NCBI GenBank assembly: GCA_020845635.1
Contig: JADLFI010000055.1
Span: forward strand, 1 to 35,664
Length of the DNA stretch: 35,664 nucleotides
Direction: 5' to 3'
Source: Bacteroidia bacterium
GTDB lineage: Bacteria; Bacteroidota; Bacteroidia; UBA4408
Shown here: positions 21,341-24,075 of the stretch, one piece after another
How the letters are laid out: each line of letters starts with the position of its first letter
Numbering within the stretch: the stretch's first letter is position 1
Made by a program: the position numbers and the translations under genes
The notes under the pieces: generated by a model
Told to the model about the DNA's origin: nothing
Seen by the model: the letters and a program-made list of their open reading frames with translations, nothing else
Database searches by the model: none

Positions 21341-21886
21341 ATGCAACAATCGTTATTATCTTTATTTCTTATTCTATCAGGAATAATAATACTCGTTTTT
21401 ATTCTTGTGTATTTAAGTTCGATCCAAAGTCAGCCTCAACAAGGTATGAAAAATCCTTTGCAGAAAAGGTTTTGGTTCATTACTATTATGGTGGTAGTAC
21501 TTGGAATGTTTTTTTTCATAACCATTCCTAAGTCGCCTTATTACTTATATGCCAACGAGCAACCTGCACGAATAGTTCATACAGTCTCTAGTCAGTTTGT
21601 TTTTCTAATGTCTAATCAGGATATAGATCCTGCCCAACCCATGGGTGAGAATATTGAACTTAATACAAATGAACTAGTAGAGTTTAGAGTTACCAGTTTA
21701 GATGTTACACACGGTTTTGGTATTTATAATGATAAGTATGAGTTAGTGGCTCAAACCCAGGCTATGCCCGGATATGTAAACAAGCTTCGCTGGAAGTTCA
21801 GTGAGCCGGGTAAGTATTATATTCTTTGTTTAGAGTATTGTGGTTCAGGCCATCAAGTAATGAAATCATTTTTTAATGTAAAATAA
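21341..21886 (+). CDS. Heme-copper oxidoreductase subunit II with CuA site
   Basis: A 181-aa membrane protein that takes electrons from a c-type cytochrome through a dinuclear CuA centre. Two N-terminal helices (about 6-26 and 45-62) are followed by a cupredoxin domain outside the membrane. All CuA ligands are visible: H124 (in DVTHGFGIYN), then C163-L-E-Y-C167-G-S-G-H171-Q-V-M174. The short length and the CxxxCGxGHxxM pattern resemble B-family (ba3-type) subunit II. The stop is 12 bp before the subunit I ATG, so the genes are co-transcribed. Confidence 0.9.
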   Translation: MQQSLLSLFLILSGIIILVFILVYLSSIQSQPQQGMKNPLQKRFWFITIMVVVLGMFFFITIPKSPYYLYANEQPARIVHTVSSQFVFLMSNQDIDPAQPMGENIELNTNELVEFRVTSLDVTHGFGIYNDKYELVAQTQAMPGYVNKLRWKFSEPGKYYILCLEYCGSGHQVMKSFFNVK

Positions 21887-21898
21887 ATTGAATTGAAT

Positions 21899-23341
21899 AT
21901 GGAAACTAAAAAACTTAATAAAATAACAGCACTTTGGATAGTTGCAATATTGGTATTATTTATTCTTAGTATAATTTTAGGTATTATTATGCGTCTTAAC
22001 CAAGGCGAATTAATAAAAATTCAACCACCAACATTTTATGCCGATATGACTACTCATGGTGTAACCATGATTGGTATATGGTTTGTTGCCGGTATGGCAG
22101 CAGTTAACTACTTTATGGAACGATATGTAAAAACCAGTTACACCGCCAATATGTTTGCCATGGTAATGACGGTAATAGGGGTAGTAATGCTTTGGTTATC
22201 TACTTTAGTGGGAAACTTTCATGCCGGTTGGACATTCTTGTATCCACTGCCTTTTAAAATAATGTGGTCAACATGGGCTACTCCATTATTTTTATGGTCA
22301 ATAGGTGTTTTTGGTATTGGATGGTTTGTTTGGACGATTAGTCTAATGGCTGCCATGCTAAAAAAATATTCAATGTCGCAGGTTCTTGCCTGGCAACATT
22401 TTGGGAAGAAAGACCCGGAAGTATCAACACCACCTTTCGTACTTATTTCAATGATAAGTTTAATAGGAGTATTAACCTGCCTGATAGCTGCCGTTATATT
22501 GCTTATATTATTATTTGCTGAATACTATTCGGGAGGAACCTTCAAAAACGATGCATTGTTAATAAAAAATCTTACTTATTTCTTTGGTCATACTATAGCT
22601 AATGAAATGCTTTATTTGGGCTTAGCCGTTATATACGAGTTGTTCCCTGAAGTTAGCGGAAGACCAAAATTAAAAACTACCTGGTATGTGGCATTAGCCT
22701 GGAACCTAACTTTGTTCTTTGTTTTGGCTGCTTTTTTCCATCATTTGTATATGGACTTTGTTCAACCGGAAGGATTACAGATTATAGGTCAATTGGCCTC
22801 CTATTTAGCCAGTTTGCCTTCATCGGGTGTTACAGTGTTTAGTATAATTGTGGTTGTTTTCAGAAACAAAATTAATTGGTCGCTTACTAACTCCTTATTC
22901 TTTATAGGTATAGTTGGATGGGTAGTAGGAGGTGTTGGAGCAGTTATTGATGCTACTATTTCAAACAATTTTATTTTACATAATACGCTTTGGGTGCCTG
23001 CCCACTTCCATACATACAATGCTATGGGCAATGTATTGTTTAGTTTAGGATTCTTTCACTGGTTTTCAAAATATGCAACTAATCACTCCTTGCCTGATAA
23101 ATACTCATTTGTTAAATTGGCTATATTGATTATAGGTGGTGTAGGATTCTTATTGGCATTTTATATAGCCGGTGCCGATTCAGTACCTAGAAGATATAGC
23201 ACTTATCCTAAAGGATTAGAAAGTGCTAAGACTTTAGCTGCGGTAGGAGGTGTTTTTGCTATTGTTTATTTAACGGGCATATTATCCTTTTTTGTTAATA
23301 TTTCGAAGAGATGTTTAAACGTACTTTTTCAACGCTCTTAA
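21899..23341 (+). CDS. Heme-copper oxidoreductase subunit I, B-family-like; terminal oxidase or NO reductase
   Basis: Catalytic subunit with about 13 membrane helices in 480 aa. The metal ligands are in place: H53 (low-spin haem, TTHGVTMIG), H231 (CuB, FFGHTIANE), H281/H282 (CuB, AAFFHHLYMDF), and H369/H371 (high-spin and low-spin haem, VPAHFHTYNAMG). The region around HNTLWVPAHFH resembles ba3-type oxidases. Four residues after H231, where oxidases of A and B type have the cross-linked Tyr, is Asn (N235), next to E236. Loss of that Tyr is known in NO-reducing members of the superfamily. I therefore leave oxidase versus NO reductase open. An in-frame TTG six bases upstream is less likely than the ATG at 21899. 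Confidence 0.85.
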   Translation: METKKLNKITALWIVAILVLFILSIILGIIMRLNQGELIKIQPPTFYADMTTHGVTMIGIWFVAGMAAVNYFMERYVKTSYTANMFAMVMTVIGVVMLWLSTLVGNFHAGWTFLYPLPFKIMWSTWATPLFLWSIGVFGIGWFVWTISLMAAMLKKYSMSQVLAWQHFGKKDPEVSTPPFVLISMISLIGVLTCLIAAVILLILLFAEYYSGGTFKNDALLIKNLTYFFGHTIANEMLYLGLAVIYELFPEVSGRPKLKTTWYVALAWNLTLFFVLAAFFHHLYMDFVQPEGLQIIGQLASYLASLPSSGVTVFSIIVVVFRNKINWSLTNSLFFIGIVGWVVGGVGAVIDATISNNFILHNTLWVPAHFHTYNAMGNVLFSLGFFHWFSKYATNHSLPDKYSFVKLAILIIGGVGFLLAFYIAGADSVPRRYSTYPKGLESAKTLAAVGGVFAIVYLTGILSFFVNISKRCLNVLFQRS

Positions 23342-24075
23342 TAATATTATTAATCTCAAATTATAATTCTATTGCGAACAATCTTTATGACAAACAAGAT
23401 TGGCGTGAAGAGGAAGGTATATATACACGAATTTATGATGCGAAAATTAAATTGATAAGTGGAGAACAAACCTCTATACATCAGTTAGCTGCTAAAAAGC
23501 CACTCATAGTTGCTTTAGTGTTTACACGATGTGCAGGGGTTTGCAACCCTCTTCTTCTGCAGTTAAAAGAAAATATACAAATTATTTTAAGAAAGAATCA
23601 ATATAAGTTTAGTGTACTGGTATTAAGTTTTGATCCTTTAGATTCGCTAAAAGATATGCAAAATTTAGCCTACCGATTTAACCTGTTAAATGAACCTAAT
23701 TGGGAGCTGGCTGTGGTTGACAGTATTTCAAGTATGACAAAATCAGTTAATTTTTTTCCTGTTTGGGATATGCGCAAAAAGCAATATGATCATGATGCTC
23801 TTTTAGTAGGGGTTAACACGCAGGGTTATATTACCAAAAAATTAATTGGTTTAAGAAGTGCCGATGAAATTTCACTATTGATTTCAGATATCAATAATGT
23901 ATATAGGCCTTCTTATAGATTACCTACCCCTGCCAATATGTTTACTTGCTTTAATTACGATCCTAAAACCGGAAAGAATACTCCGGGATGGGGCTTGGCA
24001 TTTATTGCCTTACCGGCTTTGTTAACTGTTGGTATTTTGGCCTTTTTAAGACTTAGAGGGAAATACCACTCGTAA
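23311..24075 (+). CDS. SCO1/SenC family copper chaperone for the CuA centre
   Basis: A 254-aa thioredoxin-like protein that loads or reduces copper for the CuA site of subunit II. After a signal peptide or anchor (1-22), the copper ligands are C74 and C78 in FTRCAGVCNP plus H161 in YDHDALLVGV, exactly the SCO set. A second hydrophobic segment near the C-terminus (WGLAFIALPALLTVGILAFL) likely anchors the domain in the membrane. Its ATG overlaps the last 31 bases of subunit I in another frame, which indicates translational coupling. The minus-strand PKD protein gene converges on it across 59 bp. Confidence 0.9.
   Translation: MFKRTFSTLLIILLISNYNSIANNLYDKQDWREEEGIYTRIYDAKIKLISGEQTSIHQLAAKKPLIVALVFTRCAGVCNPLLLQLKENIQIILRKNQYKFSVLVLSFDPLDSLKDMQNLAYRFNLLNEPNWELAVVDSISSMTKSVNFFPVWDMRKKQYDHDALLVGVNTQGYITKKLIGLRSADEISLLISDINNVYRPSYRLPTPANMFTCFNYDPKTGKNTPGWGLAFIALPALLTVGILAFLRLRGKYHS

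Follow-up and report, generated by a model that had tools for sequence, protein, structure and literature searches.

An sNOR-type haem-copper operon of a Bacteroidia bacterium with asparagine in place of the cross-linked tyrosine: a predicted nitric oxide reductase

Does a haem-copper operon, the catalytic subunit of which has lost the cross-linked tyrosine of the A- and B-family oxidases, encode an oxygen reductase or a nitric oxide reductase? The question is raised by a locus of a Bacteroidia bacterium, located in a stretch of 35,664 nucleotides (contig JADLFI010000055.1, hereafter the window), in which an earlier note, made from the sequence alone, had recognized a CuA-bearing subunit II, a catalytic subunit I and a SenC protein. 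The three genes and their coordinates hold with respect to both open reading frames and Pfam matches. The NorS-like subunit II (21341..21886, + strand) is an open reading frame of 181 aa that matches COX2 (5.8e-07), the NorY-like haem-copper catalytic subunit I (21899..23341, +) matches COX1 (1.8e-53), and a SenC/SCO-type copper chaperone with a C-terminal TM helix (23311..24075, +) matches PF02630 (SCO1-SenC, 1.7e-04), the latter being a borderline match of 22.0 bits for a cut-off of 22.8. The ATG at position 21899 gives subunit I a length of 480 aa, with a TTG at 21893 as the alternative start, and the end of the gene shares 31 bases with the SenC/SCO reading frame. The top NCBIfam models for the three-gene cluster are CoxB, CtaD and CyoB, all far under their cut-offs. 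Such weak matches are the usual route to the label "cytochrome oxidase", and the expectation that operons of this type are auto-annotated in this way is borne out by the best matches to CtaD and CyoB. The operon is flanked on its 5' side by a divergent methyltransferase-like gene and on its 3' side by a surface-protein-like gene, neither of which has any bearing on NO.

All six haem and CuB histidines reported in the earlier note (H53, H231, H281, H282, H369 and H371) occur in subunit I and are invariant in the 61 aligned relatives. They include H231 (codon 22589..22591, +), a CuB/FeB ligand of helix VI, and the CuB/FeB ligands H281-H282 (22739..22744, +). Four residues after H231, where the A- and B-family oxidases carry their cross-linked Tyr, the codon AAT (22601..22603, +) specifies Asn235, followed by Glu236 (22604..22606, +). 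The reading of Asn instead of Tyr is confirmed by a profile alignment to PDB chains, which puts N235 onto the cross-linked Tyr237 of the ba3 oxidase from Thermus thermophilus (4gp8). An AlphaFold (AF2) model of subunit I, obtained from an input without the Ruegeria and Thermomicrobium rows, consists of 12 TM helices (pLDDT 89.1, pTM 0.91) and resembles the oxidase subunit I structures of the PDB at Z values of about 38.

In 84,980 species genomes scanned, 481 relatives were detected, of which the best 80 were kept. Asn occupies the Tyr position at every one of these 80 loci, as well as in 61/61 aligned sequences, and Asn235 is therefore a family trait rather than the result of chance or of a local mutation. 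Nineteen reference enzymes were aligned for comparison, comprising 11 Tyr-bearing B-family enzymes, six A-family enzymes and two Gln-type plasmid genes. The cross-linked Tyr is kept in all 17 A- and B-family oxidases, and Gln replaces it in the two plasmid genes, L131 from Defluviimonas and L132 from Thermus. The Asn-Glu pair described previously stands for the window but has to be refined for the family, Glu236 being found in 62 of the best 80 of the 481 relatives and replaced by Ile or Leu in the remainder.

The loss of this Tyr could be compensated by a Tyr supplied from another helix, as in the cbb3 (C-family) enzymes, which would make the protein a normal oxidase, and Y302 had been proposed for this role. 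Position 302 is occupied by Tyr in 52 of the 61 relatives but by Trp in seven and Phe in two, all of them with the same Asn, although a catalytic Tyr should be invariant. The rescue by Y302 is rejected because of these nine sequences, and the CuA-linked, COX1/CtaD-like nature of the window enzyme also contradicts C-family membership, so that such a compensation appears extremely improbable. The only Tyr residues that are invariant among the 61 relatives are Y239, Y246 and Y373, none of which is a plausible substitute for the lost one. Y246 is the counterpart of Y248 of the ba3 oxidase. Residue Y239 is located eight residues after H231, two turns away along the same helix, and a His-Tyr bond is therefore unlikely, judging from the helix geometry, since the distance is too large.

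According to the code compiled for the Tyr position, Y designates the O2 reductases, N both sNOR and CuANOR, Q eNOR, D gNOR and E cNOR and qNOR (PMC8756737 Table A4, after Hemp and Gennis). In this respect, sNOR has been listed from Silicibacter (PMC8756737), and norSY has been reported for Ca. Methylomirabilis (PMC6094997, PMC8906906). The tree and alignment with A- and B-family oxidases and eNOR-like genes, called for in the earlier note, place the window enzyme in the same company. In an IQ-TREE phylogeny (LG+C20+F+G4) of 41 N-type rows together with ba3, eNOR-like and A-family rows, built without the Nitrosomonas sequence, all 41 N-type rows form a single clade supported at 100/100, with the ba3, eNOR-like and A-family sequences outside. 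The exact sister of the N-type clade is uncertain because of the long branch leading to it. The clade includes Ruegeria (Silicibacter) pomeroyi (L013) and Ca. Methylomirabilis, the locus from the latter genus (L071) being a relative of 50-51% identity. The gene from the R. pomeroyi megaplasmid displays the same Asn and the same order of subunit II, subunit I and SCO, in line with the earlier remark that the gene set recalls the norSY-senC pattern.

The operon is thus probably, with a likelihood that we would set at roughly 0.78, that of a cytochrome c:NO reductase of the sNOR group (norSY-senC), NO turnover being predicted from the sequence. This assignment, already preferred in the earlier note as a CuA NO reductase of the norSY-senC/sNOR type, is supported by the Asn code, the clade, the gene architecture and an excess of NosZ among the genomes that carry the enzyme. 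The operon accordingly belongs to an already known enzyme group, and only its Asn-Glu subgroup may be new. To our knowledge, no member of the N-type clade has been purified and assayed.

Compared to the known sNOR operons of Nitrosomonas, Silicibacter/Ruegeria and Ca. Methylomirabilis, the window shares the Asn residue, a CuA subunit II upstream, a SenC downstream and a short subunit I. With respect to the R. pomeroyi sNOR, however, its subunit I is 30-31% identical, exhibits Glu236 and polar residues at positions 356, 374 and 378, and the operon is devoid of the additional gene of 189 aa found after SCO in R. pomeroyi. The T. thermophilus ba3 oxidase resembles the window enzyme in its fold, six histidines, CuA and some K-channel positions (Y246, T312), but its Tyr237 and Tyr244 are replaced by Asn and Leu, respectively, and the two proteins belong to separate clades. 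The identity of a B-family (ba3) O2 reductase was rejected on the basis of Asn235 at the +4 position and the location outside the Tyr-bearing ba3 clade; as reported above, the N group splits off at 100/100, which also disposes of the placement among canonical ba3 oxidases with a substitute Tyr envisaged in the earlier note. Similarly, eNOR is related to the B-family, linked to CuA and deprived of the Tyr, but it possesses Gln where the window possesses Asn. An eNOR identity was discarded, since Gln occurs only in L131 and L132, and these group with ba3, not with the N-type clade. NorB of cNOR is an NO reductase of the same superfamily as the window subunit I, in which an FeB-ligating Glu occurs at His+4 and NorC serves as the partner; the Asn at +4 and the CuA partner of the window led to the rejection of this identity.

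The bNOR/qCuANOR of Bacillus azotoformans, which comprises a purified type I enzyme and a type II paralog and was compared by its description, also shares Asn, a CuA subunit II and a linked SenC with the window (PMC3475470). Type I differs by a subunit I of about 568 aa and a single TM helix in subunit II, and an identity with bNOR (CuANOR type I) was rejected, as the window enzyme has 12 helices in the AF2 model and a two-helix subunit II, compared to 13 and one for type I. Type II resembles the window enzyme more closely: its TM helices number 12, its subunit II has a pair of N-terminal helices, and SenC is linked to it (PMC3475470).

The subunit II of the window consists of two N-terminal TM helices, as read from its sequence, and a CuA cupredoxin domain with the motif C-LEY-C-GSG-H-QV-M and an upstream His. 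The complete CuA site announced in the earlier note is thus found again, and none of the 67 subunits II compared deviates in the ligand columns H124, C163, E165, C167, H171 and M174. In SenC, residues C74 and C78 (Cx3C), H161 and C213 are kept in 68/68 homologs, and the overlap with subunit I occurs in 65 of the 68. The additional invariant C213 belongs to a CFNYDP motif that precedes the C-terminal TM helix. Outside the three-gene set, no general conserved neighbours were found among the loci examined, the genes occurring near the operon in relatives being Rrf2 regulators (12 loci), DUF2249 (9), hemerythrin (4) and a NorCB-like pair (3). No enrichment of FNR, CRP or NsrR boxes was detected across 67 upstream regions, and the short inverted repeats present upstream are AT-rich and uninformative.

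The predicted NO reductase would operate as follows. A periplasmic c-type cytochrome or cupredoxin would reduce the CuA of subunit II, from which electrons would pass to the low-spin haem (H53/H371) and then reach the high-spin haem (H369) and a metal, Cu or Fe, held by H231, H281 and H282. At this binuclear site, two NO would be converted into N2O and water. Because Asn235 replaces the redox-active Tyr, the enzyme would lack the residue from which oxidases draw an electron and a proton locally in the four-electron cleavage of O2. The overlapping SenC would load CuA with copper, and the clade II NosZ of the host could consume the N2O produced.

A different function has been advocated for the sNOR of Nitrosomonas europaea, which its authors consider as a high-affinity O2 reductase because the norSY-senC transcripts increase 2.7-10.8-fold under O2 limitation and cNOR acts as the main NO reductase in this organism (PMC6967387). 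Applied to the window, this proposal implies an O2 reductase that dispenses with the cross-linked Tyr and reduces NO as a side reaction only. The persistence of three invariant Tyr (Y239, Y246 and Y373) would be in keeping with it, and a haem-copper, rather than haem-iron, centre is often read as a sign of O2 reduction. Yet the cross-linked Tyr has been lost in every member (80/80 of the best 80 of 481), Y239 is probably too far from H231 to form a His-Tyr bond, dedicated aa3 or cbb3 oxidases are nearly always present in the carriers, and NosZ is enriched among them, all of which makes the O2 reductase rather improbable for the window. In addition, a CuANOR endowed with NO reductase activity, in which Asn replaces Tyr, was purified from B. 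azotoformans (PMC3475470) and shows, by analogy, that an Asn-type architecture can reduce NO. Whether sNOR reduces NO or O2 is a question that this widespread three-gene operon opens to direct tests.

Much of the genomic context is consistent with the assignment as NO reductase. The host genome contains a clade II NosZ (927 bits) in a nos cluster, together with a canonical A-family (aa3) oxidase of 473 bits and a C-family (cbb3) oxidase of 411 bits; NirK and NirS gave no match in this genome, a point against the assignment. The NO consumed would therefore probably come from neighbouring organisms, and the role of the enzyme would be NO scavenging or detoxification in addition to respiration. 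At least one A- or C-family oxidase with a score of at least 370 bits occurs in 49/50 carriers, and since the host also has both, the N-type enzyme is not the sole terminal oxidase. NirK is present in 18 of the 50 carrier genomes.

NosZ accompanies the enzyme in 42/50 genomes carrying a relative, compared to 123/388 non-carriers of the phylum (Fisher p about 1e-12, uncorrected for phylogeny or habitat). The baseline is an even sample of the phylum, with NosZ in 128/395 genomes and in 123/388 once the carriers are removed, and most of the carriers are MAGs, several of them from bioreactors, although culturable species such as Cerina litoralis and Gelidibacter japonicus (L040, L045) also carry the enzyme. 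Within the phylum sample alone, the difference is weak (5/7 carriers vs 123/388, p = 0.04). The link breaks within the host genus, where one genome (G001) possesses NosZ without the enzyme and another (G003) an N-type enzyme without NosZ. The latter (L006, G003:C2:373491-374921) represents a different N-type lineage, 43% identical, accompanied by SCO and a fourth gene, which suggests an independent acquisition within a single genus. Bacteroidota play a major part in the consumption of the greenhouse gas N2O, and among their genomes with NosZ, many have been classed as "terminators" (PMC12569097). The capacity of such genomes to convert NO into N2O is easily missed, because cytochrome c oxidase is the default label of the enzyme.

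Within the N-type clade, the window belongs to a nested Asn-Glu subclade (support 100/99 in the IQ-TREE phylogeny), which also holds most of the Bacteroidota carriers, Ignavibacteriota, Kapabacteria and Methylomirabilis. Glu236 is the mark of this subgroup, occurring in 39/39 of its sequences and in 0/22 of the other subgroup in alignment A2, and N356, N374 and N378 are nearly exclusive to it. Both N374 and N378 come after the haem ligands H369 and H371 on helix X and, together with the other residues of the subclade, could participate in a proton path or a second shell. The subclade may correspond to what others call nNOR. From the residues and the branch support, it is tempting to regard it as an NO reductase family of its own, perhaps the nNOR already published, perhaps one without a name, with an active site or proton path unlike that of sNOR. 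Glu236, N356, N374 and N378 would then form a second-shell or proton-delivery network absent from other sNORs, perhaps rendering NO reduction electrogenic. Both the separate family and the network are doubtful, if conceivable. Against a separate family, the subclade nests in the N-type clade, and Ca. Methylomirabilis, an organism with a reported sNOR, sits inside it. Such a family would still be an NO reductase and, in this respect, overlaps with the sNOR-group assignment retained above.

Other loci deserve mention. A conserved NorCB-like pair occurs in the host genome, with a NorB-like gene (G000:C34:668-1855; L004/L135, 569-1894, - strand) and a NorC-like gene of 139 aa (L135, 1872-2291), and homologs were found at L103-L122, L027, L034, L050, L136 and L137. 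The NorB-like protein lacks the FeB His of helix VI and its Glu, and Met replaces the low-spin haem His, but the HH pair and the other haem His are kept, as is the CxxCH of NorC. The losses are the same against a P. aeruginosa NorB row and against PDB 4xyd and 3o0r, apart from a slight difference of registration around the His. Nos islands containing Rrf2 and Crp-like regulators harbour the pair or lie close to it. Of the 50 genomes that carry a relative of the window enzyme, 20 also have the pair, which adjoins a window-type operon at three loci. It may represent an electron-transfer relic, or else its NorB may have an active site of another kind.

On the plasmid pW43B of the marine alphaproteobacterium Parasedimentitalea marina (L014), an sNOR-type subunit I is probably broken, since it reads in two frames and is unannotated. 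Finally, the Gln-type, eNOR-like haem-copper operons of the Defluviimonas plasmid (L131, 2785-4515) and of the T. thermophilus plasmid pTF24b (L132, 2821-4506) are annotated as cbb3-type and b(o/a)3-type oxidase, and an Rrf2 regulator follows the Thermus operon.
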